Positions 3,323 to 63,834 of a stretch of DNA of 64,000 nucleotides are shown one piece after another; the stretch's first letter is position 1; each line of letters begins with the position of its first letter. The DNA is from Pyronema omphalodes (taxonomy: Eukaryota; Ascomycota; Pezizomycetes; Pezizales; Pyronemataceae). The position numbers and the translations under genes are program-made. The stretch spans positions 248,001-312,000 of the forward strand of contig JAJJXM010000032.1 in the NCBI GenBank assembly GCA_024516155.1, in the 5' to 3' direction. Under the pieces are notes generated by a model that was not told the origin of the DNA, did not search any database, and saw only the letters and a list, made by a program, of their open reading frames with translations.

Positions 3323-3402
3323 TGGGCTCGATGGGACTCGAACCCACATACAGCCCCTAAACATGTCAAGTGGCCGTGTTCTACCAATTGAATTACGAAT
3401 CC
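3323..3402 (-). ncRNA. tRNA-like gene, copy 1 (degenerate)
   Basis: Minus-strand member of the 16-copy family. The B box (GGGTTCGAGTC) and a T run five bases long follow the family pattern. The A box has one G-to-A change, and the acceptor stem (GGATTCG with CGAGCCC) has a mismatch at pair 3, so this copy is probably decaying. The anticodon arm is of the ACGG/CCGT type with one change. Confidence 0.7.
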
Positions 3403-5369: not shown

Positions 5370-5650
5370 TGCAGTTTGCTGGTGTAAATCGTACTAGCTG
5401 GTACTTACTATATGCTCAAAACACATCATGGATGCAAGATCGATGCATTTATAATCCAGTTCTTACTACATTATATGACCAGTGGCATTATAGTACTCTC
5501 TAAACTCCACTTCAAGTCGAGTTAGAAAAGCTTGGGTGAACTCTGTGCAGTCTGGTTGCTTCGAACTAAAACTGACCTCCACTTGAAGAAACCTGAAAGA
5601 ACTGATGTTTCAACTTTCAAGCTGATTTTGAGTTTACTCTTTTTGTGTTT
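5370..5650 (-). promoter_or_regulatory. Shared upstream region of the coiled-coil gene
   Basis: This 280-bp region is recognisably related to 43106-43340 upstream of copy 2. Shared words include CTTACTATATGCT(T/C)AAAAC, CACTTCAAGTCGAGTT and CTCTGGTTGCTTC. Parts of the same region also remain in 2.2-kb units lacking the gene (for example near 8090-8210 and 40060-40240), which identifies those units as relatives. Promoter function is inferred from position. Confidence 0.5.
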
Positions 5651-6241
5651 TGCCTCGTCTTGTGCTTTGTGTTTAAAACCTTTGTTCAATACCAATGTAG
5701 AAGAGTGATAATGAGTGTTCCGCCCGCCTTCTGGGAGGATCACTGCCTCTGTGAATGGAGTGCGAATACAGTACATGCCAGTGATATTTTCCATATTTAT
5801 TTATTTATTTATTTATTGAATCATACGCTGACCGAGGCCTAAAAGGCCCATGCAGGAAAAAACAACAAATATTTTTCCATATTAATGAAATGAATATACC
5901 TGCATTTCTTTTTCAAAACCAGAACACAAGGCTGGGAAATATGAAGCTAGCGAGCATCCACAAGCAACACGTGATACAACCCGTATTCACGTCATACATC
6001 ATGATCCGTGGTGTACCGTCTGATGCTAGGCATCAAAATTGAGCAGATCGTATTTTCGAAATTTTGCGTTTGATGAAACAGTTAACCAACGATTTGGTGT
6101 ATCCAAAAGGACAATGTAGAAGGTTACGATACTGTTTTCCTGCATAACAGATGAAATGCCAAAAATTGTAATAACCACGTGTGGAGTTGGTACGGTACAC
6201 CTTATTGGACTGCGCTATGGAAAAAAAAGAGGGCAATAAGA
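5651..6241. repeat. Repeat-unit arm with bipartite motif
   Basis: Contains a TTTA microsatellite (about 5795-5818), then a stretch GAATCATACGCTGACCG that resembles one near 54099. The bipartite motif in reverse orientation (CACGTGAT ... TCACGTCATACATC) lies at 5968-6000. Related arms flank other tRNA-like copies. No supported gene. Confidence 0.5.
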
Positions 6242-6896: not shown

Positions 6897-6976
6897 GGGT
6901 TTGTAGTTCAATTGGTAGAACACGGTCACTTAGCATGCTTAGGGGCCGTATGTGGGTTCGAGTCCCACCGAACCCA
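6897..6976 (+). ncRNA. tRNA-like gene, copy 3
   Basis: A near-consensus copy. The acceptor stem is GGGTTTG with CGAACCC (one wobble pair), D stem GTTC/GAAC, T stem GTGGG/CCCAC. A box TAGTTCAATTGG and B box GGTTCGAGTCC are intact, and TTCTTTTTG follows at once as a polymerase III stop. The anticodon arm is abnormal: a 5-bp stem (ACGGT/GCCGT) closes an 18-nt loop with the palindrome AGCATGCT, and no U33-anticodon arrangement can be placed. It starts a 2.18-kb unit ending at copy 4. Confidence 0.85.
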
Positions 6977-9078
6977 TTCTTTTTGTCTGCTTTTTTTATC
7001 GCAAGAAGTCTGAAAAGGTATACCTACACCACACGTGACGGCACCGAACTTTTGATGTTATTGATACCGTAGGAGAACGAGATTCTAACCTTCTACACCC
7101 TGCTTCATAAAACACTGCACCCATAGCGAAGTATGTGGAATTACCATTTTCAAGATACGGCGATCAGGTGGTCTACCTACCACACATATCCCGAACGTTT
7201 GATTTTATCGGTAGCGCACGAGAACAAAATTCCAATGTTTAAAGGTTGAAAACTTGGCATTATTATAGTCAAATCCTTCATGCTCATACTTACCATATGG
7301 CCGATGTTGATACGTGATATCCGTCGGTGTAAGTAGGATCGCGATGTATGACGTAAACGAGTATGTTGTCACGTGATGGCGTTTTAATACTCCCTAGCAG
7401 TACCTACGTATTCGTAGTTTGTCGTATTGATTAATGTGAGTATATCTGTGTCCTCTATAGATACTGCAATAGGAGTTTCGTACGCTGCAATACAATCCGC
7501 GCACGAACATAGTCCATATCGCAGGAAGCGTTGAGAACATGTAGTATCACTCGCTCACATTCGCATTGAAATTGGCCGCAGACATGGAAATCAAATACAA
7601 TTTCAGTTCTTCACGTTGAGACACATTTGGAATTTGGAGCATAAGTGCAAGATGAATTTATTAAGATGTCGCAAGGCCGGAAATGTCGTTTCAAACCAGA
7701 ACTGGAGGTTGGCAATGTAAATGAGGATCTCAACTGATTTGTGGCGCTGAAATATTTTGGTTATTGCATATTTTTACCGATTGCAGATCATACTACTCAT
7801 GTCTTCTTCAATATATATTATTTATAACGTTGTAAATATAATGTGTAATACGTGGCACCGGGAATACTTTGACTAATCATAGCCAGAAGATTCCCAAAAT
7901 ATCTCCCGTCGTGCATACAGTTTATTGGGCTTTGAAACCAGCTGGAATATATGCACTGGCTACATGCAAAACTCTATGGCGATATTCTGGCTCAGGGGAA
8001 ATCAAGGTTTGTTTCAAACTGGAGCGGTTTCAAGATTGCTCGAGTCGAATGTAGTTTTCAGTTGAAACAATCTCAGTGCACAAAGTTATCTCGAGCTTAT
8101 CCACTCGACTTGAGCTGATCTTTTCTTAGTGTCCTTGACTATAGAAAGTAGCACAAGCAGGGCCCAGACCATTAATGAACCGACTTTGCGTCCCGTGAGT
8201 TTTAAGCATATAGGAAGCATCATATAATATTAAGTGCACTATGTGCACTTGTGTAAATGTAGTATGGAGGACCTTATCCTTATCCTTATCCTCCTCAATG
8301 CTGGAAGTCTGTTAAAAATTCATAGAATTTAGTTACCGACGGCTTTGTCTGCTGTTTGCTGCGTGTTATTTCGACTTGCTTAAACTGCAAAGTATCGTGG
8401 TAACTGCTGTTAAACCTAATGAATTATATCTGGGACACTCTATCGTGGTGCTGGATTTACTGTTACCGATTAGAAGCGTGTTTAGTATTGTGGAGCAACA
8501 ATATAGACACCCTAGTCCGTCAACGAAGATAACAATCAATGTACCGCTGTGCTAGATAGGGTATAAGATGGTAATACATTACAAATCATTTTTTGTCAAA
8601 TAGATACAGGATTGTTTGATTCTTAGAGGAAAATATAACACCTTGGGCGATAAGCATAGTAAACCATTGTGGAATGAGAGGGGCTCTCACAATCTGGATA
8701 CAGCATCGAGGGATAGTAATGAACGTATGCTAAGTAGGACCGTTATTTATCTTAATTGATTCACACGATATACAACGCACAGTAGCTACTCTCATAAAAC
8801 ATTATTGCTACTGATTCTACCATTCCTTCGGCATGGATTTGTGAGCGAAGGAGTCAGTCGAGGTGCCCGGAGCACCATACATACGAAGAACGAGGGAAAA
8901 GCATCATTCCGGCTCATGGAAAAGACACCGACCAAATCCCGCATGTGGAACAAGGTACCACTGACATCACATCATTTTCTACCGCCAGCCCAGACCGCCA
9001 CCATCACCGAGAACCGCCCTTTCTCCGCTCAACCAGCGGCTGGTTATATTGCAATTTTAACACGCACTTTCACAACCT
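6977..9078 (+). repeat. Short (2.2-kb) tRNA-like repeat unit body
   Basis: Order of landmarks: oligo-T stop; an arm with CCGAACTTTTGATGTTATTG; the bipartite motif at 7343-7379; a stretch around GTATTACAGYGTACGAAAATC in reverse; the remnant of the coiled-coil gene upstream region (about 8080-8215); then an arm ending in CCGAGAACCGCCC before copy 4. The same order is found in 37112-41320 (minus) and 55930-60205 (plus). The coiled-coil gene body is absent. No open reading frame of note remains. Confidence 0.75.
7343..7379 (+). promoter_or_regulatory. Bipartite TGACGTAA / TCACGTGA motif (representative)
   Basis: TATGACGTAA, about 12 bases, then GTCACGTGATGG. The first half matches a bZIP (CRE/ATF) site and the second an E-box of the Cbf1 type (RTCACRTG). 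It is one of about 19 occurrences in the repeat units, listed in the findings. Binding is inference. Confidence 0.5.
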
Positions 9079-9159
9079 GGGTTTGTAGTTCAATTGGTTA
9101 GAACGAGGCCACTTAGTATACTTAGGAGCTTCATGTGTGTTCGAGTCCCACCAAGCCCA
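9079..9159 (+). ncRNA. tRNA-like gene, copy 4
   Basis: Second subfamily: the outer anticodon-arm stem is GAGG with a CTTC/CCTC partner, and the inner palindrome reads AGTATACT. The T stem has one mismatch (GTGTG). A and B boxes are recognisable and a run of seven T follows directly. Nearly identical to copy 9 inside the long inverted repeat. Confidence 0.8.
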
Positions 9160-11959: not shown

Positions 11960-12039
11960 TGGGTTCGATGGGACTCGAACCCACATACGGCCCCTAAGCA
12001 TGCTAAGTGACCGTGTTCTACCAATTGAACTACAAACCC
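11960..12039 (-). ncRNA. tRNA-like gene, copy 5
   Basis: Minus strand, consensus ACGG/CCGT-type copy with AGCATGCT in the enlarged loop, intact A and B boxes and TCTTTTTG immediately after the 3' end. Confidence 0.85.
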
Positions 12040-14079
12040 AGGTTGTAAAATGGCGTGTTGGAATTGAAACATAAGTTGCTGCTGGTTAGACGGATGAAGC
12101 GCGGTTCTCGGTGGTTGTGCATGGCGGCGCAAGGAGCTATGATGTCAGTGGTTAAGGGAGCGCTTCTTTCTGTATTGTCCATGTTTATCGTTCATATTCC
12201 CAAGCTAGTTATGGTCTGGTTAAAATAGTGAAGACCGACGCCGAAGATATGATACTAATCTCTCAGCTGTATCCCCCTCACGTACATTGAACATTACTTA
12301 TAACCGGATAGCTCAATCGGCGGCGAGGTTACTGCAGCACAATCCGAATGCAAGGCGGATGATGGTCGACTATCATTATATATTCTCATGTCGCTCTCTC
12401 TTAAACAATTACCCCGAATACTCACGGAAGCATCAACCATACTGTTCTCGTTTGCTATATTGTGGTAAAAGAGAAGTTGCTCCGAGCCTCCAGTACAGTC
12501 TCTCAATCACATCTAGCTCCAGTACATGTGGCAATAACTAAAACTGGACTGGGCAGTCTGGTGTGAGATGTCTTTGCTGCAATACTTTGTGCTTCAGTAA
12601 AATCCGAACGCTAGTTGGATTATGGTCGACCATGATTCGATCATCAACTGTTGTTCCCTTCCCTTTGACCACCACACTGGAAAAATGCAATCCATTATCC
12701 CGGTTCTCTTTTTATGGTTTCACAAATATCACATCGCGTAATGGGGGACCATAATCCTCTTTTCGCTTGGTATTCCTCCTTCCAATCCCACATGGGAATA
12801 CATAATCAGTTGTTTCACTGTACAGTATCAACTCATGTCTAATCCACGTGAATATCCCTTCCTTTTAAAATTTTCTCTCACCCTATCGAGTATCAAACCC
12901 ATCGAGGCTGTCTCTACAGTGTAAGTTCAACTCACTATCTACACCACCGTCCTATTTCTTCCTGCAGCTCAATTCAGTTCACAATGATCTTTTGCCTCCA
13001 TTTATAAATATTCTTTGGATAACCTTTGAGGTTCAAGCCAAATATTACTACACTCGGAAATATTAATGTGGGTGTTGACTACACCATAGTATGCGTGCCG
13101 CAGCAATCAGTCCTGGAGTACAAGTAACAAATATTCAAAGCATGAGATAAAGTGACATCTTACAATTGAATAATCTTCCGATGAAGTTGTAAAGGAGATG
13201 ATTTATCGTCCATCCGGGCTCTATCGGTACCTTGAATTTAAAAAATGATCGGGAGATGGAAATTTTTGGGCTGTATCATCGTAAACTCAGTATCACCTGA
13301 ATAGGATATTTCAGGTCCTCCTACACTATATAATCCAGGGTTGTTTCTACAATACGACGTGAATGGAATAGTCGTGAACCATAATAGCGAATAACAGGTA
13401 CCGGGGCTTTAGAAGATTAGGTTTATGGCAGGACTCCTCATTCTATGAGGAATATTGGGCTTTCAGATGATTATGGTATTGCTCCCAGATTCAGGCATTC
13501 ATAAACCCTTCCTGGAAATCGAGGGATATCACACGAACATGACTGTCGACGCGCACTTGATTCGTGACCGTGTAAATGCGCGGTGACGAATGGCAACACG
13601 GCGAGGCCGTTTCTCAAGTATCTATCAAATCTATGTATTGAGATTTATCGGGAATGTTCCTAGTTTTGACTTTTCACGGAATATAGCCTAAAACCAGTTA
13701 TAAATCTTTTATCTTCGTATATGGAAGTAACGACAAACAAGCGTTGAAAAAAGGGGCGGGACCTACTTCCGGATTTTAATATGGTCGAGTTTAATCGTAA
13801 TTTTGAAATTGTCAGTCTATTTGACCAAACCATCGAACTCAACACAGATACACACGATTGATACCACATACACCACAGCGTGCTATGAGGGACCATATAC
13901 GTGTTTGAATGGGAATGCACAAAACAAAATGCGAATGAAAAAAGGCCCATCCTATAAAAAAGACAGAAATACAGTTGGGTATAACAACATCCTATACTTC
14001 TGGGTTCTCGGGTTTCACTTCTCGCTTCTCACTGCTCCGTATATAGACAATGATTTCTTACAGGTCCTCCTCTGACCCA
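12040..14079. repeat. Spacer with possible decayed tRNA-derived fragments
   Basis: 12171-12250 resembles 46085-46165. Two stretches, near 12300-12380 (TAGCTCAATCGG, an A-box-like word, then GATGGTCGACTATC) and near 12580-12640 (AATCCGAACG ... ATGGTCGACCATG), look like distant relatives of each other and could be old tRNA-derived SINE fragments; this is weak. From 12740 to 14079 I see no repeat match and no supported gene. Confidence 0.35.
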
Positions 14080-14101
14080 CCCCCCCCCCCCCCCCCCCCC
14101 C
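14080..14101. repeat. Poly-C tract (22 nt)
   Basis: An uninterrupted C run directly downstream of the lipin-derived pseudogene (read on the minus strand, a G run). Read length errors are likely here. Confidence 0.9.
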
Positions 14102-14166
14102 AAATGCCATACGCCAATTTATACTCTCTAGCATTCCTTGTTATTTTCATCAGTACTGCTCCTCCT

Positions 14167-14905
14167 CTACTTCCCAACCAGCGCCGCAACCTCCTTCTCA
14201 ATCGCCTCCTTCGCATGAGTGATAGGATCAGCAATATGATTAATCATTCTCCTTTTCGCAAAGTTCGATTTCTGTTCCTCCTGATCCTCTGCCTCCAGCA
14301 CCTTCTCATCTTCCACTTCACTTTCATATTCCACCCCATCTTCCTCCTCCTCTTCTTCATCATCATCATATTCCGCATCTTCATCTTCTAAATAACTTTC
14401 CCCTATATCACTGACATCTTCACCATCCTCCTCCTCATTTTCAGAATCCTCATTCTCAGAATCCGAAAATAAATCCGGATCCACCACATCTTCTCTCTAA
14501 TAATTGAAATCCGTAAACTCCTCCTGAGTATCATTAACGATTTCGACAGGGGGGGAGAAATGGTCTACCAAATCCCTCATGTTGACATAACTACTTTTAT
14601 ATTTCGTCAGACACAGTAGATCCAATACAACTTCCGCATTAGAGTTAATAGTAAATATCCTAGTCGAAGGAATATTAACCGAACGATAACTCAACGCATC
14701 AGGTAATCGATTTCCAAATCCCGCATAAAACGGATTATGTTTTTCCCCAAAGGGATTTCAAATATCTCTTAAAGCAGCGATTTTAAAAACTTCGGGTTTT
14801 CGGAGTTAAACTTCTCTTCTTAGAGCGTGGAATGTTCGATCAGAACTCATGATGACGGGACCCGTAGAGACTCGGTAGCCGTCCTGTCACGCTTGTGATC
14901 TGGTC
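14167..14905 (-). pseudogene. Truncated lipin C-terminal fragment
   Basis: This is a copy of the 3' third of the lipin gene at 50679-53328 (roughly nucleotides 52620-53328 there), in minus orientation. It keeps the segments SYRSVNIPSTRIF and LDLLCLTKYKSSYVNMRD, the acidic tail and the ending AIEKEVAALVGK. It lacks the N-LIP domain and the catalytic DxDxT region. At least two stop codons break it: the codon for the Trp in FNYWRED is TAG here, and a Tyr codon upstream (in REVYLRK) reads TAA. Nearly all other differences in the best-preserved part are silent (see findings). At its 5' side it abuts a remnant of the coiled-coil gene N-terminus, so it seems to have replaced that gene's body within a repeat unit. 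Confidence 0.9.
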
Positions 14906-14917
14906 CCTGAGATGGTG

Positions 14918-14998
14918 GTAAGGAATGTTCCTCCTGCTTGGTGGCCGAGCAACAGTTAAGAGAGCTTTTAGCTCGAGAAGCTGGAGAGGCCGTTACTG
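14918..14998 (-). pseudogene. N-terminal remnant of the coiled-coil gene (third copy)
   Basis: The minus strand reads like the first ~25 codons of the 169-aa gene, with the recognisable words TASPASRAKSS and KQEEHSLPP aligning to the starts of copies 1 and 2. The start codon is lost and the rest of the gene is missing, replaced by the lipin fragment. The upstream region (15000-15250) still resembles the coiled-coil gene promoter, including CAAGTCGAGT. Confidence 0.65.
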
Positions 14999-16116
14999 TG
15001 GGCTTATGTAAGCTTCACTAGTTGCTGTTTAATGTATTCCAATAACTCAACATGAGCTGCGAGATGGCTTTATTTATACCCTAGGCCTTGCTACTTTGTA
15101 TGGCCAAGGACACTGAGAAAACGTTAGCTCAAGTCGAGTCGGAGAAGCTGGTGACAACACTGTGCACTCTAATTGTTTCAGACGAAAACTTCACTCGACT
15201 TGAGGAGCCTCGAAACTACACCTGTCTGAAACTACCCTTGCTTTACTTTAAGTTGGGAATATCAATATGGAGTTTTAGATGCAAAAAGTGCATTTATGCT
15301 AGTTGGTTTCAAGGCATCAGAAACTCGGTGCACTGCGGGCGATGTTTTAGGAATCTTCTGGCTCGGATCACAGCCGCAGTATCCCCAGTTCCACGTATGA
15401 CACGCTATATTTACACCTGGATAAATGAAACATATGCATGAAAAAATAAATATCTTGATCACGAAATTGCAACAAATGCATAATAACAGAAACACTTCAG
15501 CCAGAAATAAGTTGACATTCTTGATCGAAGTTCCAACCCCCATTTTATGTATTGAGACGATGCTTCCGGCCTTGAGACACCTTGATACCGATATTCTGCA
15601 CTTGTTCATGGTATTTCAAGCGCGTCTTAGTGGAAAAAATCGACATGTTGTGTCATGCCCTTGACCGATCCAAGGTCGATGCGAAAGTAAACGAGTGATA
15701 ACACATGTTCTAACTGCTTGCTAAGACGTAAGCGGAGTGTATTACAGCTTACGAAAATTGTATTTGCAATATATATTATACAATTAATTCAATTGCATCA
15801 ATAAAGAAGACAACCTGTGAATGCGCAGCTGGGGAACATTAGCCATAATCACGCAATACCATTCCGCGTTTACGTCATACATCACGATGAGTCTTGTACC
15901 GTCTGGCATCATGCGTCCACATTGACCAAATCTTATCCACATTTAGAGGTGTAAAATTTGACTCCTTCGAAAATATTTCTTTCGGCATTTAGTATTACAG
16001 CGGGGAAATTCCAAATCGTCTTCTGGTGAGTCAGAAAAATGAGACAGTTCACGACAGTCACGTGTGGGGTAGGTATGCCTTATCAGACTGTGCGCAAAAA
16101 GAATAATGCAAAAGGA
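14999..16116. repeat. Repeat-unit arm upstream of copy 6
   Basis: Contains the coiled-coil promoter-like stretch (15000-15260), a segment related to 36060-36480 and 44880-45130, and the bipartite motif in reverse at 15848-15888 with a decayed E-box half. No supported gene. Confidence 0.55.
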
Positions 16117-35236: not shown

Positions 35237-37031
35237 TCTTTTTGCATTCTTCTTTTAACAAGCAGTCTGATAAGGCATACCTACCCCACAAGTGACTGTC
35301 CCGAACTCTTGATTTTATTGATGCCGCAGGAGAACAAAATTCTATCCTGCTCTACTGTGCTTCATGATACACCACACCTAGTGTGAACTATATGGAAAGT
35401 ACAATCTCAGACATACGATGTGGTCTGTTGTGACGCGTGATGCCAGAAGGTACAAGACAAGTCGCGATGTATGACGTAAGTGCGGGTTGTATCACGTGAT
35501 GATGGCAAATTCTGCCTAGCTGCATGACGGTGTAGAGGGTCTTTTTTCTTCATGAATCTCAGAAAATATGATTCACCGATGTCTGTTAGAAGACTTCCCT
35601 GCGCTACAATGTACCGTTACTACAATACGTACATATGACTCACCCCCCTGTAAACATGATTTCAAAACACACTAAAGCACTCGGTGTGATTTCCATTGAA
35701 CATGGAACCACTTTTGGGCATCGAACGACATGTCTCTGGGGTAAAGCTCAAAAGTATATTTAGTTTACTTGGAATGAAGGGAATTGATGATTTTACATGT
35801 CATATGGTAATTTACTAGTGTCCCAGAACTACCCATGGAATCAATACTCTTACAAGATTACGAAGTTCCTCTGCATCTCATACGCTATCGTAAAAGTCAG
35901 CCCAAGTCGAGTAGATAATCTCGAGACAACTCTGTACATTGAGATTGTTTCAACTGAAGACTACGCTCGACTTGAGGAATCTTCAAACGGCTCCAGTTTG
36001 AAAAACTCACCTTGATTTACTTTAAGCCGGATTATCACCATAGAGCATTGCATGTAGTAAGTGCATATATTCTTGCTGATTTCAAGGCGCTGTAAACTGT
36101 TAGCACGGCGGGAGATATTTTGGGAATCTGCTGGCTATGATTAGTCACAGTATTGCCGGTGCCACTTATTACTCATTATATTTACAGGAAGATGGATAAC
36201 ACATATCTAGGAACACATGAGCAGTATGATCTGCAATTGGCAAAGGTATGCAATAAACAAAATACTTCAACCACAAATCTGTTGAGATCCTCCTTCACCT
36301 TCCCAACCGCCAGTTCTGATTTGAAACGATATTTCCGGCCTGGAAACATCTTAATAAATCCATCTTGCACTTATGCACCGGCTTTCGAACGTATCCCAAC
36401 GTGAAGAACTGAAATTTTATTTGATGTTCATGTCTGCGGCAAATTTCGATGCGAATGTGAGCGAGTGATACTACATGTTCTCAACGCTTTTTGCAAATAT
36501 GTATGGACTATGTTCGTGCGCGGATTGTATTACAGTATACGAAAATCGCATTGCATTATCTAGAGAGTATCTAGTCCCATTAATTAATACCATCAACTCA
36601 GAATACATGCCTAGGAATATTAAACGCCATCACGTGATACTACCTGCGTTTACGTCATACATCGCGATCCTTCTTACACCACGGATATCACGCATCAACA
36701 TCGGCCATATGGTAAGTATCAGCATGAAGGATCTAACTATAACAATGCCAGGTTTGCAGCCTTTAAAGATTGGAATTTTGTTCTCGTGCACCACGAATAC
36801 AATCAAACGTTCGGGATATGTGTGGTGGGTATTCCTCCTAAGCGCCATATCTTGAAAATGGGAATTTCACATACTTCGCTACAGGTACGGTGTATCATGA
36901 AGTACGGTGTAGAAGGTTAGAATTTTGTTCCCCTGCGGCATCAATAACATCAATAGTTCGGGGCAGTCACGTGTGGGGTAGGTATACGTATGCCTTATCA
37001 GACTGCGTGCAAAAAGAATAATGCAAAAAGA
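35237..37031. repeat. Two convergent repeat-unit arms
   Basis: 35237-35830 is the arm downstream of copy 7, with the bipartite motif at 35464-35504. 35890-37031 is the mirror arm downstream of copy 8, with AGTCGAGTAGATAATCTCGAG, a GTATTACAGTATACGAAAATC stretch and the reverse bipartite motif at 36629-36668. No supported gene; short frames are not conserved between copies. Confidence 0.65.
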
Positions 37032-39122: not shown

Positions 39123-39203
39123 TGGGCTTGGTGGGACTCGAACACACATGAAGCTCCTAAGTATACTAAGTGGCCTCGTTCTAACCAATTGAACTACAAA
39201 CCC
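39123..39203 (-). ncRNA. tRNA-like gene, copy 9
   Basis: Minus strand, GAGG-type subfamily, nearly identical to copy 4 including its T-stem mismatch. A run of seven T follows. Confidence 0.8.
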
Positions 39204-41320
39204 AGGTTGTGAAAGTACGTGTTAAAATTGCAATATAACCAGCCGCTGGTTAAGCGGAGAAAGGGCGGTTCTCGGTGATGGTGGTAGTCTAGGATGGCGG
39301 TAGGGGAAAAATATGATGTCAGTGGTAACTCGTTCCAGATGTGGGATTTGGTCGGTGTTGTTTCCATGAGCCGGAATGATGCTTTTCCCTCGTTCTTCGT
39401 ATGTATGGTGCTCCGGGCACCACAACTGACTCCTTCGCTCACAAATCCATGCCGAAGGAATGGTAGAATCAGTAGCAATAATATTTTATGAGAGTAGCTA
39501 CTGTGCGTTGTATATCGTGGGAATCAATTAAGATAAATAACAGCCCTACTTAACATACGTTCATTACTATCCCTCCACCCTGTATCCAGGTTGTGAGAGC
39601 TCCTCGCTTTCCACAAGTGTTTACTAAGCTTATCGCTCAAGGTGTTCTATTTTCTCCTAAGAATCAAACAATCCTGTATCTGTTTGACAAAAAATGATTT
39701 GTAATGTATTACCATCTTATACCCTATCTAGCACAGCGGTACATTGATTGTTATCTTCGTTGACGGACTAGGGTGTCTATATTGTTGCTCCACAATACTA
39801 AACACGCTTCTAATCGGTAACAGTAAATCCAGCACAACGATAGAGTGTCCCAGATATAATTCATTAGGTTTAACAGCAGTTACCACGATACTTTGCAGTT
39901 TAAGCAAGTCGAAATAACACGCACCAAACAGCAGACAAAGCCGTCGGTAATTAAATTCTATGAATTTTTAACAGACTTCCAGCGTTGAGGAGGATAAGGA
40001 TAAGGATAAGGTCCTCCATACTACATTTACACAAGTGCACATAGTGCACTTAATATTATATGGTGCTTCCTATATGCTTAAAACTCATGACGGGACGCAA
40101 AGTCGGTTCATTAATGGTCTGGGCCCTGCTTGTGCTACTTTCTATAGCCAAGGACACTAAGAAAAGATCAGCTCAAGTCGAGTGGATAAGCTCGAGACAA
40201 CTCTGTACACTGAGATTGTTTCAACCGAAAACTACACTTGACTGGAGGAATTTTGAAACGGCTCCAGTTTGAAACTAACCTTGATTTACTTTAAGCCGGA
40301 ATATCATCATAGAGCCTTTCATGTAGCAAGTGCATATATTCTAGCTGGTTTCAAAGCCCCGTGAACTGTTGTTAGCACGGCGGGAGATATTTTGAGAATC
40401 TTGTGGCTATCATTAGTGAGAGTATTCCCGATGCCATGTATTGTACATCATATTTACAACGATATAGAGAACATATATCCAGGGACACGTAAGTAGTATG
40501 ATCTGTAATTGGCAAAAATACGCAATAACCGAAATACTTCAGCCACAAATCAGTTCACACCCTCAATCACGCTCTTAACCGCATATTCTGATTTGAAACG
40601 ATATATCCGGCTTTGAAACATCTTAATAAACTCACCTTGCACTCATGCATTGGCTTTCAAACGTATCTCAACGTGAAGGACTGAAATCTTATTTGATGTT
40701 CATGTCTGCGGCCAATTTCGATGCGAATGTGAGCGAGTGATACTAAATGTTCTCAACGCTTTTTGCAAATATGTATGGACTATGTTCGTGCGCGGATTGT
40801 ATTACAGTGTACAAAAATCGCATTGCATTATCTATAGAGTATGCAGATATAGTCACAGTAATTAATACCATCAACTCAGAAGACATGGCTAGGAGTATTA
40901 AACGCCATCACGTGATACTACCTGCGTTTACGTCATACATCGCAATCCTTCTTACACCCACGGTTATCACGCATCAACATCGGCCATACGGTAAGTATGA
41001 GCACGAAGGATTTGACCAAAATAATGCCAAGTTCTCAGCCTTTGAAGATTAGAATTTTGTTCTCGTGCGCCACGAATAACATCGAAAGCTTGGGATATGT
41101 GTGGTAGGTATACCACCTAATCGCCGTATCTTGAAAATGGTAATTCCACATACTTCGCTACAAGTGCGGTGTATCATGAAGCACAGTGTATTATGAAGCA
41201 CGGAGTAGAACGTTAGAATTTTGTTCTTTACGGCATCAATAACATCGAAATTTTGGGAAGTCACGTGTGGGCGGGTATGCCTCATCAGACTGCTTGCGAT
41301 AAAAAAGCACACAAAAAGAA
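39204..41320 (-). repeat. 2.2-kb repeat unit lacking the coiled-coil gene
   Basis: The body between copies 9 and 10, minus orientation. It retains the coiled-coil promoter-like region at 40060-40240 (CTATATGCTTAAAACTCATG), but the gene body expected next to ATTATATGG near 40055 is missing. The reverse bipartite motif is at 40907-40948. Pairs with 6977-9078 as part of a long inverted repeat. Confidence 0.75.
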
Positions 41321-41400
41321 TGGGATCGGTGGGACTCGAACCCACATACGGCCCCTAAGTATACTAAGTGACCGTGTTCTACCAATTGAACTACAAACCC
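41321..41400 (-). ncRNA. tRNA-like gene, copy 10 (mixed subfamily)
   Basis: Minus strand. The outer stem is ACGG/CCGT (subfamily 1) but the loop palindrome is AGTATACT (subfamily 2), which suggests exchange between copies. A and B boxes intact and TTCTTTTTG follows. Starts the long unit that carries coiled-coil copy 2. Confidence 0.8.
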
Positions 41401-42595
41401 AGGTTGTGAAAGTGCGTGTTAAAATTAAAATATAACCAGCTGCTGGTTAAGCGGAGAAAGGGCGGTTCTCGGTGCTGATGGCGGTTTGGGATGACGGTTG
41501 AAGTCCATATGATGTCACTGTAACTCGTTCCACATGCGGGATTTGGTCGGTGCCCGATGCATGAGCCGGAGTGATGCTCTTCCCTCGTTCTTCGTTTTTG
41601 TGATGCTCCGGACACAGCAATTGAATCCTCATATCACCAAGCTATGCCGAAAGAAACGATAAAATCATTAGTAACACTTCGTTATGTCAGTAGATACTGT
41701 GTGTCTTATTTCGTAGGAATCAATTAAGATAACTGAAGGTTCTACTTGGAATACGTTCATTATTATTCCTCCACCCTGTATCACTCCACAATGGTTTACA
41801 TACAGTGTTCAGCTATACCTCATTAGCCTCAACAGCATTTACCACAATACTTGAAGGCCAAGCGAGTGCGGAAGCCAGACGTCAGATGAGAGACGCAGCC
41901 GCCATTAACTAAGTCACACGAACTATGAAGGCTTCCAATTTTGTGCGGGATAACGATCAAGTCCTCCATACTACATTTACCCAAGTGCCCTTCATGCAGC
42001 TAACATTATATTTACGATTAATTATGGTACATGGCGAATCACAGTGGTGGATATATGCACCTATTCGCAGATATATGCACATAGTGACATTTGGTTTGAA
42101 GTGGTGTTTCGTCACGGGTCGTTATTGTAATACCTGTTCATACAACTGGCTGGGAAAATATAATCCAATAGAATGTAGAAATTATTTACCATTTTACTAA
42201 AGTATCTAGCTACATAGGTATATGAATCAGCAGGTTGTCGATAACATTGATGAGACTTGCTGCAAAGCTCTGAGACACTGCTCTGGAAAGTAAGTCGGTT
42301 AACTTAGAGCCACCCATCAAATGGTTGAACATACATACCGGAGAGTAAACATATTTCATTCATAGCCTGGCTGCAGAGTCGCTGGCAGTGAACAGGGGGA
42401 CTGAGGGGTATTGTAAAATATGAAAAATCGAGAAGAGAGGTCACTTTAGTTCGCGTCATAGGCGAATAATGCTTTTGTGATAATTTATTGTAAGATTATA
42501 TTTGTGTCACTTCCGATAGAAATGTATTCTTCATCCGAATCGAATGCCTTTAGGACCCCAGGTTTACCAACACAACCTTGTGCCGTATCTCAAAA
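41401..42595. repeat. Spacer of the second long unit
   Basis: Counterpart of 3403-4859 without the fold-back MITE. 41430-41640 is the head arm; 41700-42030 matches short units up to about AACATTATATTTA, after which only the long unit continues into the coiled-coil gene. No supported reading frame. Confidence 0.6.
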
Positions 42596-43105
42596 CTATG
42601 CATCTCTCGTCGTAAGTAGTCTTTGAACCTCTACCTCTGATCTTTCCTTCATCCAAGAATCTCCCTCAACGCCACACATCATACAAATCTGGTCATCAAC
42701 CCTCTTCTGCAGCCGATTATTATGTTCGACCAGCTCCAAATTCTCTTGCGTGATATACCAAACCCGTGCTTGTAGAACTTCAATCTCCTCTTTTCTTTTC
42801 TGAAGCTCCGCACAATATTCTGCATTTTGAGATTCCAATACGTCGTACTTTTCCTCTGTATCGTCATTTAATTTCAAGACCTCGTTGAGATCGTCTTGTA
42901 TTTCTTGTCTCTCTTTTTTGATCTTCTGGAGGAGCATAATTAGGGCTTCTCTCGCTGGTTTCTGGCGAGATGGCTCAACTTTGCGCTCAGTAGTCTCGAC
43001 ATCAGTACGATCGCGTTTTTCATATGGCGGTGAGGTTTGTTCGTCCTGTTTAGTGTCTGAGCTATTGTCGGAAAAACCTACTGTTCTAGAAGCTAGAGAG
43101 GTCAT
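42596..43105 (-). CDS. Repeat-associated coiled-coil protein, copy 2 (169 aa)
   Basis: Same length and layout as the copy at 4860-5369: variable polar N-terminus (the VETTER block is shared), charged coiled coil from about residue 52 to 135 (DLNEVL, LESQNAEY, QEN-ELVEHNN), then ICMMCGV with CxxC, DSW and QRLL. Charge and hydrophobic spacing are kept even where residues differ (for example K/R, E/D, I/L/V exchanges). The frame is intact from ATG to stop. Its unit contains a hAT transposon 349 bp upstream of the start (43454-44508), which may separate it from part of its promoter. Function unknown; I would call it a candidate protein encoded by the repeat unit itself. Confidence 0.7.
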   Translation of the reverse strand: MTSLASRTVGFSDNSSDTKQDEQTSPPYEKRDRTDVETTERKVEPSRQKPAREALIMLLQKIKKERQEIQDDLNEVLKLNDDTEEKYDVLESQNAEYCAELQKRKEEIEVLQARVWYITQENLELVEHNNRLQKRVDDQICMMCGVEGDSWMKERSEVEVQRLLTTRDA

Positions 43106-43453
43106 TGTAGTTGACTGGTGTATATCGTACTATCTGATGCTTACTATATGCTTAAAACTCATGATCGGACGCAAGAGGGGTTCTCTTATGATATAGTCCT
43201 TACTAGGTACTTTGTATGGCTAATAGTATTATAGTACTGAGTGAAAGTCACTTCAAGTCGAGTTGGAAAAGCACGGGTAAAGCATGTGCACTCTGGTTGC
43301 TTCAAACTAAAACAGGACCCCACTTGGGGAAACCTGAAACCAATCAAGTGCGAAGCAAATATTTATTTTGATACAGTTGTTTAGGTAATTTTGCCTCAAC
43401 AATATTGGTCACAGAAAAATTTGCAATGTACAAGGATTACTAAGAGAAAGCTG
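43106..43453 (-). promoter_or_regulatory. Upstream region of coiled-coil copy 2
   Basis: Related to 5370-5640, with TATGCTTAAAACTCATG, CACTTCAAGTCGAGTTGG and CTCTGGTTGCTTC. It is cut short by the hAT insertion at 43454. Promoter function is inferred from position and conservation. Confidence 0.45.
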
Positions 43454-44508
43454 CAGAGTTCGGCACGGTCCGTCCGGTCCCGTCCTGGCCAAGGACGGGA
43501 CCGGACCGCCACTCGCGGTCCCGTCCTGAAGTAGGACCAGGACCGGCCGTCCTGGAGGCACCATGGACGGGACGGACCGCGGGTGACCGTGGGTGACCAC
43601 GACTAGCGTCACTGCCGGTCACTCGCAACCCGCAATTTTTTTTACTACGGCTCATGGTGTTTTCCTTAGATAATTCTGATGCATCGCACGAGTTAAAGTC
43701 ACCTATATGAAATTACTTGCACACAAAAAAAAACTATACTGATGCATAAGAAAGCTCCTGCCCCCTACACCACACTGCATCCTTCCCCCGGCACATTGAA
43801 CTACAATACCTTAATTGAGCTGAGTAGGCCCCGTTGGTGTAAAGAGATCACTGTTAAGTGTCGACAAAGCAGAAGAGATTGTGCTTTCTCCATCCAGTAT
43901 ATCCTTCTCAAATGAGATGGACTCCGGAGAGGACAGGCAAGGTGTTCTGCTCCTGGTCGGAACAGGGGTTGATGACGATGATGAGGACATGTTGATATTT
44001 CTACGGTGTTCTATATCGAGTGATAGCTGTGGATGTTCGACTTATACGGCAATGAAAGGACTGGAAAATTCTTGCAGGTAGAAGATAGAATAGTAGAAGA
44101 TAGAACGAGAAGGACAGAAGAAATACTTATAGCGTAATCGTACTTTACTAAGAAAAAATAATAACATCAAGCTACCATAAGCAGTCAAACTATTGCTGGG
44201 TGGAGCGTGCACCTGCATTGGGGTGCAAAAGTTTTAATCAAGTGCAGCATGAAGGGTTCATACTGAAGTGCTGAAATCGTCACTGCTGCGGTCCATAATA
44301 TCTGGCAAACTTGAACCAAACGGCCCCCTGCACACTAGCGCACCCAAAGACCACGGTCCTGCCGTCACCCGCCGTCCCGTCCGGTCTTTTGAGTTTGCGG
44401 ACGGGACCGGACTACCTAGTGGCCGTCCGTCCAAAGTCGAGGACGGGACCGGACCACCAGCGTGGTCCCGTCCGGTCCGCCGTCCTGGACGGACCGTGCC
44501 GAACTCTG
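43454..44508. mobile_element. hAT-type transposon (non-autonomous), 1,055 bp
   Basis: Ends are inverted repeats starting CAGAGTTCGGCACGGTCCGT (22 bp perfect), continued by GC-rich subterminal GGACGGGACCGG words on both sides. A perfect 8-bp target duplication GAAAGCTG flanks it (43446-43453 and 44509-44516), the hAT signature. The interior has no complete transposase. It carries one short minus-strand frame (43990-43811). GC content of the termini is far above the surrounding DNA. It sits inside the long tRNA-like unit. Confidence 0.95.
43811..43990 (-). pseudogene. Short reading frame inside the hAT element (59 aa)
   Basis: Starts MSSSSSSTPVPTRSRTP and ends in TPTGPTQLN. I do not recognise it. 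A Ser/Pro-rich start would fit the N-terminus of a deleted transposase, but no zinc-finger or dimerisation motif is present, so this is only a possibility. Confidence 0.25.
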
Positions 44509-44516
44509 GAAAGCTG

Positions 44517-45533
44517 GGTATAGGCAGTTAGGCAAAAGATCATCTAAACGAGAGACTGCAAGCATGAGACTGTCAAAAAGCAGGCACATCAAACAAAATG
44601 TAAATTACATAAACTGACACTACTGAACCCACCGTACTATTAAACAAAGAGCAGAAAAGGGAAAACATGAATATCGTCGTAGGCGATTAGATTTGGAAAA
44701 ACATATGTATGTAATAGTGAGCATCAAGGCCACATATTCTATGGAAAGGAGTAGATATATTAGTAGAGATGGACATGAATCGTCTCTAGATATCCGGAAT
44801 CGTTTGAAACAAGACCTCCAGTTGGCAAAGAAAACGTGAGACAGTTCAGTGTCTTTTAGAGTCTTTCAATCCTTGCACATAGATAATGGAGATAACAAAC
44901 CCAAGAATGCATCAGGTTACGGGTACGCAATAACTGAAACACCTCAGCCACACATTACTTGAGATCCTCTATTCATGTACCCAACCCAATTCTATGTACT
45001 GAGGCGTGGTTTCAAGTCTTGAGGCGTCTTCATAAGTATATCTTACACTTATGCATAAGCGTAAAGAATTGACATGTTATGTCATGCCCTTGACTGATCT
45101 AAGGTCTCCGCAAATTTAAACGAGTGATACTACATGTTCCTGATGCTTGCTGGGAAAATCACTATGTATGAGAGCGCCGTGTATTACAGCGTATGCAAAT
45201 CGCATTCGTAATATGAATGAAGTTATTATACTCTCATCCGTAACAAAAAAACTATGAATAAGTAGCTAGGGAACATTAGCCGTTATCACGTAATACTATC
45301 CGCGTTTAAGTCATACATCGCGATGTGCCTTGTATCGTCTGGCATCATGCGTCCACATCTAGGAATGTACGATTCAACTTGAATAATTATGCATTTTTTG
45401 CATTCAGTAGCACAGCGTAGAAATTGCTAATTTGATTCTCTAGCGCCACGAACGAAAATGAAAATTCCGCAAGAATTATGGGTAAAGAATTATGTCTCCT
45501 CAGACTGAGTTATTAAAGCAGAATTTTAAAATA
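44517..45533. repeat. Arm upstream of copy 11
   Basis: 44517-44860 is not clearly matched elsewhere in the window. 44880-45533 matches the arms at 15430-16116 and 36180-37031, with a decayed reverse bipartite motif at 45285-45323. No supported gene. Confidence 0.55.
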
Positions 45534-45613
45534 TGGATTCGGTGGGACTCGAACCCACATACGGCCCCTAAGCATGCTAAGTGGCCGTGTTCTACCAATC
45601 GAACTACAAATCT
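45534..45613 (-). ncRNA. tRNA-like gene, copy 11 (degenerate ends)
   Basis: Minus strand. A and B boxes are intact and the arm is ACGG/CCGT type with AGCATGCT, but the acceptor stem (AGATTTG / CGAATCC) has lost its first pair. The downstream T run is short and interrupted (ATTTTAAAATTC). Confidence 0.7.
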
Positions 45614-55848: not shown

Positions 55849-55929
55849 GGGTTTGTAGTTCAATTGGTTAGAACGAGGTGACTTAGTATACTTAGGAGCC
55901 TCATGTGGGTTCGAGTCCCACCGAACCCA
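55849..55929 (+). ncRNA. tRNA-like gene, copy 12
   Basis: GAGG/CCTC subfamily with AGTATACT in the loop. Unlike copies 4, 9 and 13-15 its T stem is fully paired (GTGGG/CCCAC). A and B boxes intact; TTCTTTTTG follows. First member of a head-to-tail array. Confidence 0.85.
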
Positions 55930-58014
55930 TTCTTTTTGTCTGCTTTTTTTATCGCAAGCAGGGTGATAAGGCTACCCCCACACGTGAGGGCCCCGAACTT
56001 TTGATGTTATTGATACCGCAGGAGAACAAAAATCTAACTTTCTACACCCTGCTTTATGATACACCGTACCCATAGCGAAGTATGTGGAATTACCATTTTC
56101 AAGATACGGCGATTGGGAGGTATACCCTACCAAAGGCTACCATACATATCCCGGACTTTTCGATGTTATTCATGGCGCAGGAGAACAAAATTCCAATGTT
56201 TAAAGGTTGAAAACTTGGTATTATTTTAGCCAAATCCTTCATGCTGATACTTACCATATGGTTGATGTTGAGGCGTGATATCCGTTGGTGGAAGTAGGAT
56301 CGTGATGTATGACGTAAACGCGGGGTAGTATCACGTGATGGAGTTTAATACTTCTAGCAGTAGGTATGTATTTTTTGTTTGTTGTATTGAGTAATGTGAG
56401 TATATATGCATACTATATGGATATTGATAATGCGATTTTCGTACACTGTGATACAATTTGCGCACGAACATAGACCATATTTGCAGGAAGGGTTGGGAAC
56501 ATGTAGTATCACTCGCTCACATTCGCGTTGAACGTGGCAGCAGATATGGATATCAAATAAAATTCCATTGAGAAGCATTTGAGATCCGATGCATAAGTGC
56601 AAGATGAATTTATTAAGATGTTTCAACGCCGGATATATCGTTTCAAATCAGAGCATGCGGTCGGGAACGTAAATGAGGATCTTAACTGATTTGTGGCTGA
56701 GGTATTTTTTTTCAATGATGGCATATTTTTACTGATGGCAGATCATACTACTCATATGTGCCTATATATACGTTATCTATATCATTGTCAATATAATGTG
56801 TAATACGGGGCACAGGGAATACTGTCACTGATCATAGCCAGAAGATTCCCAAAATATCTCCCGCCGTGCATACAGTTTACGGGGCCTTGAAACCAGCTAG
56901 CATATATGCACTTGTTACACGCAAAGCTCTATGGTGATATTCACGCTTAAAGTAAATCAAGGTTAGTTTTAAACTGGAGCCATTCCATGATTCCTCTAGT
57001 CGAGTGTAGTTTTCAGTTGAAAGAATATCAGTGTACAGAGTTGTGTCGAGCTTATCCACTCCACTTCAGCAGACTTTTACTCAGTGCCCATAGTCATAAA
57101 ACGTAGCACAAGCAAGGCCCAGAGCATTGATGAAACGACTTTGCGTCCTAGCATGAGTTTTAAGCATATAGGAAGCACCATATAATATTATGTGCATCAT
57201 GTGAACTTGTGAAAATCAAGTATGGAGGACCTTATCGTTATCCTCCTCAGCGCTCGAAGGCTTTTAAAACTCTATATGATTTAGTTAGCAGTGGCTTCCT
57301 CTCTTGTTTGGTGTGCGGAATTTCGACACGCTTAAACTCCAAAGTATCATGGGAACTGCTGTTACACCGAATGCATTTTATCTGGGACACTCAATAGTAG
57401 CCCCTGGTTTACTCTTATGGATGAGAAGCGTGTTTGATATTCACAGACACCCGAGTCCGTCAATGAAGAAAAACTAATGTACCGCGGCGCTAGTTAGGGT
57501 ATAAGATGGCCATACATTACAACCCATTTTTTGTCACATAGATACTGGATTGTTTGATTCTTCGGAAAACACAAACTCCTTGGGCGACACGCATAGTAAA
57601 CCATTGCGAAATGAGAGCAGCTCTGACAACCTCAATACAAGGTGGAGGGATAGCAATGAACGTCTGCTAATTAGAACTGTTACTTATCTTGATTAATTCC
57701 CACGATATACAACGCACAGCGGCTACTCTCGTAACATTGTTTCTACTAATTCTACCATTCCCTCGGCATAGATTTGTGAGACCAGGAGTCAGTCGAGGTG
57801 CCCGGAGCACCATACATACGAAGAACGAGGGAAAAGCATCACTCCGGCTCATGGACAAGACACCGACCCGATCCCGCATGTGGAACGAGTTACCACTGAC
57901 ATCATATCGTTTTTCTACCGCCATCGAAGACCGCCACCAGCACCGAGAACCGCCCTTTCTCCGTCTAGCCAGCAGCTGGTTATATGGGAATTTTGATACG
58001 CACTTTCACAACCT
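55930..58014 (+). repeat. 2.17-kb tandem unit, array member 1
   Basis: Same landmarks in the same order as 58096-60205: CGAACTTTTGATGTTATTG, ACAAAATTCCAATGTTTAAAGG, bipartite motif (56302-56340), coiled-coil promoter remnant (about 57000-57190), then the type-C arm. No intact gene. Confidence 0.8.
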
Positions 58015-58095
58015 GGGTTTGTAGTTCAATTGGTTAGAACGAGGTCACTTAGTATACTTAGGAGCCTCATGTGTGTTCGAATCCCACCAAACCCA
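58015..58095 (+). ncRNA. tRNA-like gene, copy 13
   Basis: GAGG/CCTC subfamily, acceptor GGGTTTG / CAAACCC fully paired, B box GTTCGAATCC (one change), T stem with one mismatch, TTCTTTTTG after the end. 2,166 bp from copy 12. Confidence 0.82.
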
Positions 58096-60205
58096 TTCTT
58101 TTTGTCTGCTTTTTTTATCGCAAGACACCTGAAAAGGTATACCGTATACCTACCCCACAAGTGACTATACCGAACTTGTGATGTTATTGCTGCCGTAAAG
58201 AACAAAATTCTGACTTTCTACACCGTGCTTTATGGTACACCGTACCTGTAGCGGAGTATGTGGAATTACCATTTCCAAGATGCGGCGATTAGGTGGTATA
58301 CCTACCAAAGGCTACCATACATATCCCGAACTTTTCGATTCTATTCATGGCGCAGGAGAACAAAATTCCAATGTTTAAAGGCTGCAAACTTGGCGTTATT
58401 CTAGTTAAATCCCTCATGCTCATACTTACCATATGGCCGATGTTGAGGCGTGATATCCGTTGGTGTAAGTCGGATCGCGATGTATGACGTAAACGCGGAC
58501 AGTATCACGTGATGGCGTTTAATACTTCTAGCAGTAGGTATGTATTCGTGGTTTGTCGTATTGATTAATGGGAGTATATCTGCATACTCTATAGATATTG
58601 ATAATGCGATTTTCGTACGCGATGATACAATCCGCGAACGAATATAGTCCATATTTGCAGGAAGCGTTGTGAGCATGCAGTATCACTTGCTCACATTCGC
58701 GTTGAACGTGGCAGCAGACATGTACATGAAATGAGATTTCAGTTCTTTACGTTGAAACGCGTTTGAGATTCGGTGCATAAGTGCAAGGTGAATTCATTAA
58801 GATATCTCGAGGTCGGAAACATCGTTTCAAATCAGAACATGCGGTCGGGAACGTGAATGAGGATCTTAACTGATTTTTGGCTGAAATATTTCGGTTATTG
58901 CATATTTTTACCGATTGCAGATCATACTACTCATGTATTCCTAAATATGTGTTATCTATCTCCTTGTGAATATAATGAGTAATACGGGGCACAGGGAATA
59001 CTGTCACTGATCATAGCCAGAAGATTCCCAAAATATCTCCCGCCGTGCATACAGTTCATGGGGCCTTGAAACCAGCTAGAATATATGCACTTGCTACATG
59101 CAAAGCTCCATGGTGATATTCCGGCTTAGAGTAAATTAAGGTTAGTTTTTCAAACTGGAGCCGTTTCAAGATTCTTTAATTCGAATGTAGTTTTCAGTTG
59201 AAAGAATATCAGTGTACAGAGTCGTCTCGAGCTTATCCACTCGTCTTGAGCCGACTTTTGCTCAGTTCTCCTGACCGTAAAACATAGCACAGGCAAGGTC
59301 CAGACCATTAATGAACCGACCTTGCGTCCCATCATGAGTTTTGAGCATATAGGAAGTGCCATATAATATTATGTGCATCATGTGCACTTTTATAAATGTA
59401 GTATAGAGGACCTTATCCGTATCCTCCGCAGTACTGGAAGCCTTTGAAGTTCATAGAATTTCGTTAGCGGCGGCTTCGTCTTTTGTTTGATGTGTGGTAT
59501 TTCGACTCGCTTAAAATTCAAAGTATCGTGGTAACTGCTGTGGAACCTAATGAATTATATCTGGGATGCTCTATCGTGGCGCTGGATTTACTTTTACGAT
59601 TAGAAGCGTGTTTAGTATTGTGGAGCAATAATATAGACACCCAAGTCCGTCAATGAAGCAAAATCCAATGTACAGCTGCGCTAGATAGGGTATAAAATGG
59701 CCATACATTACACAGCATTTTTTGTCAAATGGATACAATATTGTTTGATTCTTCCGAAAAACGAACACCTTGGCCGACACGCATCGTAAACCATTTCGGA
59801 ATGAGAGCAGCTCTGAAAACTCGAATACAAGGTGGAGGGACAGCAATGAACGTTTGCTCATTAGAACCGTTATTTATCTTGATTGACTCCCACGATATAC
59901 AACGCACAGTAGATAATCTCATAAAACATTGTTGCTACTGATTCTACCATTCCTTCTGCGTGGATTTGTGAGACAAGGAGTCAGTTTGGGTGCCCGGAGC
60001 ACCATACAAACCAAGAACGAGGGAAAAGCATCACTCCGGCTCATGGATAAGGCACCGACCCGATCCCGCATATGGAATGAGTTACCACTGACATCATATC
60101 GTCTTCTACCGCCATCCCAGACCGCCACAAGCACCGAGAACCGCCCTTTCTCCGTCTAGCCAGCAGCTGGTTATATGGGAATTTTGATACGCACTTTCAC
60201 AACCT
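58096..60205 (+). repeat. 2.19-kb tandem unit, array member 2
   Basis: Closely resembles the previous unit along its length; bipartite motif at 58479-58514, coiled-coil promoter remnant at about 59200-59365, type-C arm from about 59740. No intact gene. Confidence 0.8.
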
Positions 60206-60286
60206 GGGTTTGTAGTTCAATTGGTTAGAACGAGGTTACTCAGTATACTTAGGAGCCTCATGTGTGTTCGAGTCCCACCAAGCCCA
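60206..60286 (+). ncRNA. tRNA-like gene, copy 14
   Basis: GAGG/CCTC subfamily, one change in the arm (GAGGTTACTC), T stem with one mismatch, ATCTTTTTTT after the end. 2,191 bp from copy 13. Confidence 0.82.
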
Positions 60287-62479: not shown

Positions 62480-63834
62480 TTCTTTTTGTATCTGATAAGG
62501 CATACCTATCTCACACGTGACGGCCCCGAACTTTTGATTTTATTCATGCCGCAGGAGAACACAATTCTGATATGCGACCCCCTACTAATAAACACTGCAA
62601 ATTTGTCACTGTTCTTGTCAAATTGTACATGCCCATAGACACTATATGGCCAATTTCAACGCGTAATACCATACAATATCAAAAAAATCGTAATCTACAA
62701 CTCAAACGAGGATAGTATCACGTGATGGTTTCTAATATGTTCCTGGAGGAAGGAAGAACCGGGTGAGAGGGTTTAAAGGGTTGCTAGGGGTGCAAGATCC
62801 AGAGTTGTGACACAAGGCGTAAAGGTGACCCTAGAGAAATTCACAAGAGATTTTGAATCACATTTTTTCATGTCCGGAGGCACCAGCTAGCAGTATAATT
62901 TCATAAAAACGTAAATTAGGCACTAGGACATCTCATCATAGTAAAAACACATTGTGTGTCATTTTTCTCCATTTCGCACCTCCCTTGATGTTCTACTACC
63001 AGGCTGGAATGACATGTGTTTGCTCCTCTGAATGCGGATTTAATCATTGGATAAGCTGCTATAAGTCAGCTTACCTGCCGTTACAGCCTGCTTCTTAGAG
63101 CATCGCGGGGCTTTACAACAGGTCTTTTAATTATCAGCGACGATTCCCTGAGATACATACATAGTTCGACAATTCAGTAAAAACTTAATTGTCGTTCAAA
63201 TGCCAATCAATTGCATTTTCCATGCCAATCGCCTAAGACTTTTCCTCAACAATGACCCACGCCGAGAAACAGCTTGAAATTTAATACCACCATTAGCAAG
63301 TATCTATCACGATGTGTGAATCCATTTCAGAAATAATTTTGCGGAGGGCTTTATTTTAAATGTGTATCTGACTTTTTCCTTGTATGACCGGAGTATCCAT
63401 CACTATCATTCGCCCTCTACCACAGTTGTGCTTACGTATGATACTCAGCGCATAAAGTGCACTTTGGCAAATGTAGTATGGGCGGCTTCATTAGTATCCC
63501 CCTCGACGCCGAAAGCTTTTTTGGTTCATGGAATATAGTTAGCGGCTGCTATGTCTCCTGTTTTGTGTTTTGCTTCCGAGCGCGTTAGCAAGTAAAGTAT
63601 TGTGATGACTACTGTTGAATCTAATCAAGAATAGCTGGGACACTGTATTGTGGCGCTGAATTCACTTTTGTCGATTATGAATGCCCTGTGTGCTGCGGGT
63701 GGAAAATACAGACATAGGAGTCTGCTAAAATGCCATATAAATACCACTCATATTCTATAATTTTCAATACTGCATCCATACTTGAATCTTTTTTCTTTTT
63801 CGTAACATATTTTCAGCCCTTGAAATAACCAGCC
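62480..63834. other. End of repeat domain III and upstream region of the secreted-protein gene
   Basis: 62480-62750 is a short unit arm with a half bipartite motif (about 62712-62726). 62760-63420 has no match I can see. 63440-63690 resembles unit sequence at 8230-8490 (TAAAGTGCACTTTGGCAAATGTAGTATG, then GCTGGGACACTGTATTGTGGCGCTG), so repeat-derived DNA ends about 145 bp before the start codon of the next gene. A CT/T-rich tract (63788-63801) precedes that start. Confidence 0.5.

Follow-up and report, generated by a model that had tools for sequence, protein, structure and literature searches.

Two kinds of repeated unit lie side by side in one part of the genome of Pyronema omphalodes, one with a gene and one without it, and the question is how they came to be related. 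The stretch analysed (the window; 64,000 nucleotides, C159:248001-312000) belongs to contig C159 of a 60.8-Mb assembly of 232 contigs. Its long units are bordered by tRNA-like sequences and carry a gene for a 169-residue coiled-coil protein, which the short units lack. An earlier sequence-only reading, centered on the long unit named A here, had described the short units as deletion derivatives and likened the pair to an autonomous transposon with its non-autonomous copies. We consider it probable that the locus is instead a local, lineage-specific array of tandem and inverted duplications between tRNA-like modules, in which one unit lost the gene and was then multiplied.

A whole-genome DNA search was performed with a short unit as the query, and 40 of 46 candidates were scored. 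Complete units were confined to C159:231.2-326.6 kb, within 95 kb. Six of them are short, four in the window (39123, 6897, 55849 and 58015) and two outside it (C159:231228 and C159:324446, the latter with an internal gap of ~90 bp in the right arm). The long-type units are four in all, two intact (A and B) and two damaged (C and D); thus the survey suggested by the sequence-only reading gives a 6:2 ratio of complete gene-less to intact long units, with two intact long units rather than one. Unit lengths are 2.2-3.2 kb. The period of unit A is 4213 bp, and removal of an insertion together with its 8-bp duplication (1063 bp) leaves 3150 bp, in agreement with the 3.15 kb given previously.

Table. 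Features of the repeat array (window coordinates; strand as + or -, with a dot where none applies)
Feature	Position	Strand	Remarks
Long unit A, tRNA-like to tRNA-like period	41321..45533	-	whole unit 41321-45613
tRNA-like sequence, left edge of unit A	41321..41400	-	Rfam tRNA score 44.4 bits; 16 such sequences in the window
Left arm of unit A	41401..42011	.	mosaic
Gene-bearing segment of unit A	42012..43135	.	1,124 bp; ends placed to within a few bases; lacking in all six short units
169-aa coiled-coil gene, copy A	42596..43105	-	open frame
hAT-type insertion	43454..44508	.	1055 bp; right arm of unit A
tRNA-like sequence, right edge of unit A	45534..45613	-	
Long unit B, intact	3323..6241 / 3323-6321	-	gene 4860-5369
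Gene-bearing segment of unit B	4071..5399	.	1,329 bp, or 1,126 without the 203-bp insertion
Palindromic insertion in segment of unit B	4485..4687	.	203 bp; 99.5% copy at C159:337292-337494
169-aa coiled-coil gene, copy B	4860..5369	-	63% amino acid identity to copy A
Long-type unit C, truncated gene	11960..16116 / 11960-16197	-	
Copy of lipin gene 3' end in unit C	14161..14887	-	from 52611-53334, inverted, 88%; adjoins gene remnant
Remnant of gene start and 5' flank, unit C	14893..15024	-	65% to copy B DNA
Long-type remnant D	62740..63677	+	left-arm end and first part of gene-bearing segment
Short unit	39123..41320	-	junction 40061/40062
Short unit, inverted	6897..9159	+	both tRNA-like edges; junction 8221/8222
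Short unit, inverted	55849..58014	+	junction 57179/57180
Short unit, inverted	58015..60286	+	both tRNA-like edges; junction 59360/59361
Partial short-type right arm, the seventh	35892..37031	-	starts ~100 bp right of the junction; outside the junction count
Paired motif ATCACGTGAT, 13 bases, ACGTCATACATC	40907..40941	+	near tRNA-like modules

All six complete short units have one junction in common, located at the same alignment columns and reading TATATGGTGCTTCC or a one- or two-base variant of it. The left arm ends in (T/C)ATAT and is followed by GGTGCTTCC or a variant. In both intact long units other bases stand at this place: TTACG (A) and GTATG (B) follow the left side, and ACTATCT (A) and ACTAGCT (B) come just before the right side. 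Read by eye, the two landmarks previously described as directly adjacent in short units are 11 nt apart, while the gene is indeed gone from between them. The 11 bases correspond to sequence on the right side of the long unit, and the junction is therefore placed just after TATAT. No clear microhomology or target duplication was seen at the junction; an imperfect TATNT is common to the two sides in unit A, and they have less in common in unit B. A candidate 3-base microhomology was rejected after the bases were recounted.

The segment absent from the short units spans the whole gene, from ~30 bp before the start to ~585 bp past the stop, and the segments of units A and B are alike over most of their length. 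The net length difference between long and short units, given earlier as about 1 kb, is smaller than this segment, the left arms being shorter in the long units (611 and 669 bp) than in the short ones (835-858 bp). Left arms are 81-95% identical among short units, and the arms of long and short units are 59-77% identical; because the alignments extend over hundreds of bases at such identities, chance likeness is excluded. The breakpoints do not differ from one short unit to another, and the alignment thus upholds the description of these units as derivatives without the gene. The gene was found in two copies in the 60.8 Mb, each an open frame inside a long unit, and at no single-copy locus of this genome lacking a tRNA-like neighbor.

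The trees of the left and right arms each part the long from the short units (ultrafast bootstrap 99 and 100, respectively). Both are unrooted, and the split alone gives no verdict on gain or loss of the gene. It is quite unlikely in our view that the long units are the derived form, produced by a single insertion of the gene-bearing segment into a short unit. With branch lengths summed by hand, the midpoint falls on the unit B branch in both trees, and short units nest among the gene-bearing ones; in the right-arm tree the path from A to B (0.710) is nearly tied with that from B to the partial short arm (also 0.710). Under midpoint rooting unit A groups with the short units, which makes loss in the lineage of the latter the simpler reading. 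The segment is also present, in whole or in part, in four diverged long-type units, shows by eye no target duplication or inverted ends in the two intact ones, and holds a gene with relatives in two other sequences. The six short units most likely trace to one gene loss followed by amplification, with the direction of change, loss rather than gain, favored by the midpoint.

Could the multiplication be due to transposition? In that case the units would be a transposable element of an undescribed kind; the long copies would encode in the 169-residue protein a factor needed for movement, and the short copies would have been moved in trans. The common arms with a clean internal difference, the numerical excess and greater likeness of the complete gene-less copies, the gene kept open, and the dispersal of tRNA-like modules and of one arm piece are all consistent with such an element, which we nevertheless regard as unlikely, given the few gene copies in the genome and the absence of any recognized enzyme similarity or fold in the protein. 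The unit edges are direct, not inverted, repeats. Seven pairs of unit or array ends were scanned from -140 to +280 around the tRNA-like sequence for target-site duplications, taken as direct repeats with a length of 4, 5, 6 or 8 bases at boundaries common to the pairs, and none exceeded the mispaired controls. Repeats of 5 bases occurred at 5/7 end pairs and repeats of 6 bases at 4/7, levels matched in each case by 42 of 100 mispaired controls; for 4 and 8 bases the observed level was reached by 100/100.

The insertion in the right arm of unit A provides a built-in control for mobility. It is bordered by a perfect 8-bp duplication, GAAAGCTG, at 43446-43453 and 44509-44516; from its ends and this duplication we take it to be of hAT type. 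In the genome search with this insert (40 of 300 candidates scored) matches were found on at least 33 contigs, in contrast to the complete units, which all lie in the one 95-kb stretch. The likening of long and short units to an autonomous element and its derivatives is not borne out by these comparisons: the short units appear to go back to a single ancestral event rather than to a set of deletions, no mobility enzyme was recognized, target-site duplications do not exceed the control, and the outer flanks of units 39123 and 6897 are alike. A transposon is not supported. The hAT-type element itself has no long open frame; full-length copies (94-100%) lie on at least nine contigs among the scored candidates, and a shorter subfamily (83-85%) occurs on many contigs.

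A second kind of mobile element would be a Helenus-like terminal-repeat retrotransposon in miniature (TRIM), a short long terminal repeat (LTR) retrotransposon whose terminal repeats contain a tRNA-like sequence, present here in tandem. We find this very improbable, even though a tRNA-like sequence does lie in direct repeats at both unit edges and Helenus is known in fungi, as stated in the part of the Helenus description considered here (PMC10886601). The same part gives lengths of 311-1263 bp, against 2.2-3.2 kb for our units, and 5-bp duplications were not above the control. The two module cores of one unit are 0.75-0.90 alike (mean 0.809, n=6), on average below like edges of different units (left-left 0.854, n=15; right-right 0.839, n=15); this is a difference of means with overlapping ranges, and the cores of unit 58015 reach 0.90, which weakens the case for duplication over an LTR origin. 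LTR edges start identical, and the lower likeness within units therefore speaks against LTR elements, as support and not as proof. A core tree joins the right-edge cores 6897, 326536, 55849 and 233363 at 97. The LTR reading was also examined with an alignment of 34 cores, and it was rejected because sharp ends, target duplications and matching edges were lacking.

Several features of the array speak for local duplication. Units 39123 and 6897 with their outer flanks form an inverted duplication of ~2.9 kb at 87%, with adjoining blocks at 90 and 99%; the two share ~440-460 bp of outer flank, a pattern as in segmental duplication. Units 55849 and 58015 stand in tandem. We propose that a spacer between two tRNA-like modules originally held the small coiled-coil gene, and that this spacer with its bordering modules was copied head to tail and in inverted orientation, presumably by recombination at the DNA level. 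One copy would then have lost ~1.12 kb including the whole gene, and at least six copies would have arisen from this gene-less one. Local duplication with one gene loss is the most likely mechanism; a new mobile element is less favored.

Several observations weigh against this account. The trees lack an outgroup, so that the midpoint may just reflect a fast unit B, and gene conversion may make the short units look young. The tRNA-like modules are also found on ten other contigs and a 263-bp left-arm piece stands alone on contig C46; these dispersed sequences imply that something in the family has moved.

The modules, each consisting of a tRNA-like sequence and conserved flanks, are strung along ~160 kb of contig C159. 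The module core extends from the tRNA-like sequence for ~190 bp to one side and for tens of bases to the other, and it also occurs on C5, C35, C101, C113, C125, C160, C178, C182, C212 and C218. Contig C125 is a 14-kb near-repeat of C159 around 392 kb. On C182, C160, C113, C178 and C5 the modules lie in tandem repeats at most 13 kb from a contig end, with periods of ~4.1-4.5 kb on the first three and a more rearranged pattern on C178 and C5. The tandem repeats at these contig ends (L033, L034, L035, L036 and L037, in the same order) are mostly 94-99.8% alike and hold one or two tRNA-like modules each; in the part of L033 that was checked, the longest open frame has 148 codons for amino acids. 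The piece on C46 (C46:363349-363611, L050) is solitary, 75% identical, and has unrelated flanks and no clear end signals.

ARAGORN predicted 13 tRNAs in the window, eight for Leu, one for Ser and four without a full anticodon. The sequence at 41321-41400 and 36 other copies have an enlarged anticodon loop that holds a self-complementary octamer (AGCATGCT, AGTATACT, AACATGTT) with covariation at its paired positions. For the cloverleaf and the loop octamer in 34 distinct sequences, 38 cells were changed on both sides (0/500 shuffles), 17 of them in the octamer; further pair types were not above shuffles (183/500), and relatedness inflates such counts. This covariation argues that the tRNA-like sequence keeps a folded form.

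The modules are accompanied by a paired motif. The combination of ATCACGTGAT, 12-14 bases and ACGTCATACATC has 25 exact matches in the genome, all on module-bearing contigs, and its reversed control has none. Similar pairs occur at 44 places in 16 stretches, some of them weak or without an adjoining module. A 101-residue frame over the companion motif (40747-41052) was rejected as a gene, being interrupted by stops in eight of nine other aligned arms. We speculate, as a long shot, that modules with the paired motif form the termini of a fungal element of a new class that hops locally. The coiled-coil protein would then be its only protein and the short units its parasites; the protein might bind the modules or their RNA as a dimer and promote local duplication.

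The gene itself shows signs of selection. Pairwise codon likelihood for copies A and B gave a ratio of nonsynonymous to synonymous rates (omega) of 0.47 overall (likelihood ratio 7.97) and 0.34 for residues 53-169 (likelihood ratio 11.4). No indels separate the copies in 510 coding bases, against nine in 802 aligned non-coding bases, and the frame stayed free of stops in 0.74% of simulations of neutral change (0.0074). Part of the protein, residues 53-169, is thus under constraint. On the other side of the balance, residues 1-52 show none (omega 0.95), and other estimators range from 0.34 (NG86) to 0.90 (YN00).

AlphaFold2 predicted a disordered start, a single long helix at residues 48-144 (confidence score pLDDT mostly >90) and a short second helix at 153-165. 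The CxxC tail, around CMMCG and DSW, is near-invariant in the four proteins. No Pfam family matched copy A or B, and the PDB search returned eight weak matches with E 0.081 at best, among them coiled coils and 'Apoptosis 1 inhibitor'; none of them is a mobility enzyme. Three of the eight are 'Apoptosis 1 inhibitor' chains (E 0.28-0.33) aligned with residues 132-158 of copy A. The CxxCG...W stretch at the C-terminus of copy A is similar to the initial half of a BIR zinc site, but the sequence has no His or Cys beyond it. On our best reading of the sequences the gene would be a resident under selection and not a mobility enzyme; a mobility protein of a new kind is less likely.

Relatives of the gene are few. 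A search of 5.8 billion proteins gave three matches, namely copy B, a 158-residue JGI protein and a 158-residue protein of P. omphalodes CBS 100304. No further protein came from a profile search, and scans of viral and genome contigs confirmed no relative of the gene. The CBS 100304 protein is 55-57% identical to copies A and B and has no closer match in this genome. The coiled-coil gene is an orphan, seen by the protein searches in this genome, CBS 100304 and one JGI sequence only. For comparison, the lipin frame of the window encodes 660 residues and is 100% identical to a P. omphalodes entry, and among the 120 lipin matches listed of 3675 none bears the name CBS 100304; the lipin of that strain is therefore probably inside the 90% cluster of the identical entry. 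If so, turnover between strains would be much faster in the coiled-coil family than in lipin.

Further changes were found in the units. In the left arm of unit A, likeness to short units is 79-82% over the first 382 bp and 67-73% from ~400 on; this mosaic suggests exchange between neighboring units and counts in favor of the local duplication account. The 203-bp palindromic insertion in unit B is presumably MITE-like (a miniature inverted-repeat transposable element). Among short units C/T and G/A changes are commoner in CpA/TpG (467 and 514, against 247-363 elsewhere; unnormalized counts). Repeat-induced point mutation was dismissed as an unneeded cause because the units have composition indices near those of host genes.

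Among the papers listed by the literature searches, none dealt with this locus or with tRNA-like modules of this kind, in which the cloverleaf covaries and a companion motif is present. We take P. confluens to be the former name of P. omphalodes. For P. confluens, 605 tRNAs have been predicted, and divergent repeats, a homologue of rid and numerous orphan genes are also reported (PMC3778014).

Among known systems, Helenus (TRIMp3) is like the present array in having a tRNA-like sequence within direct repeats that border a spacer. In contrast to Helenus, as far as the portion of its description considered here extends (PMC10886601), the units of P. omphalodes are longer (2.2-3.2 kb against 0.3-1.3 kb) and their edges are not near-identical; they also show no target-site duplication above control and contain a gene under selection. 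Autonomous transposons and their internally deleted copies likewise comprise gene-bearing and gene-less copies with both arms in common. Unlike them, the array has one event for all six short units, no recognized mobility enzyme, no defined ends and no dispersal of complete copies. Local duplication with one gene loss can mimic such a transposon pair, and the tests applied here separate the two. The array also resembles a clustered gene family shaped by duplication and loss: tandem and inverted copies in one place, some with common outer flanks; two intact genes, one truncated and one reduced to flank, besides gene-less duplicates; and selection on intact copies next to broken ones, with estimators of selection that differ. 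Unlike such a family, the copies described here have structured tRNA-like modules at their borders, and these modules occur at other places too.

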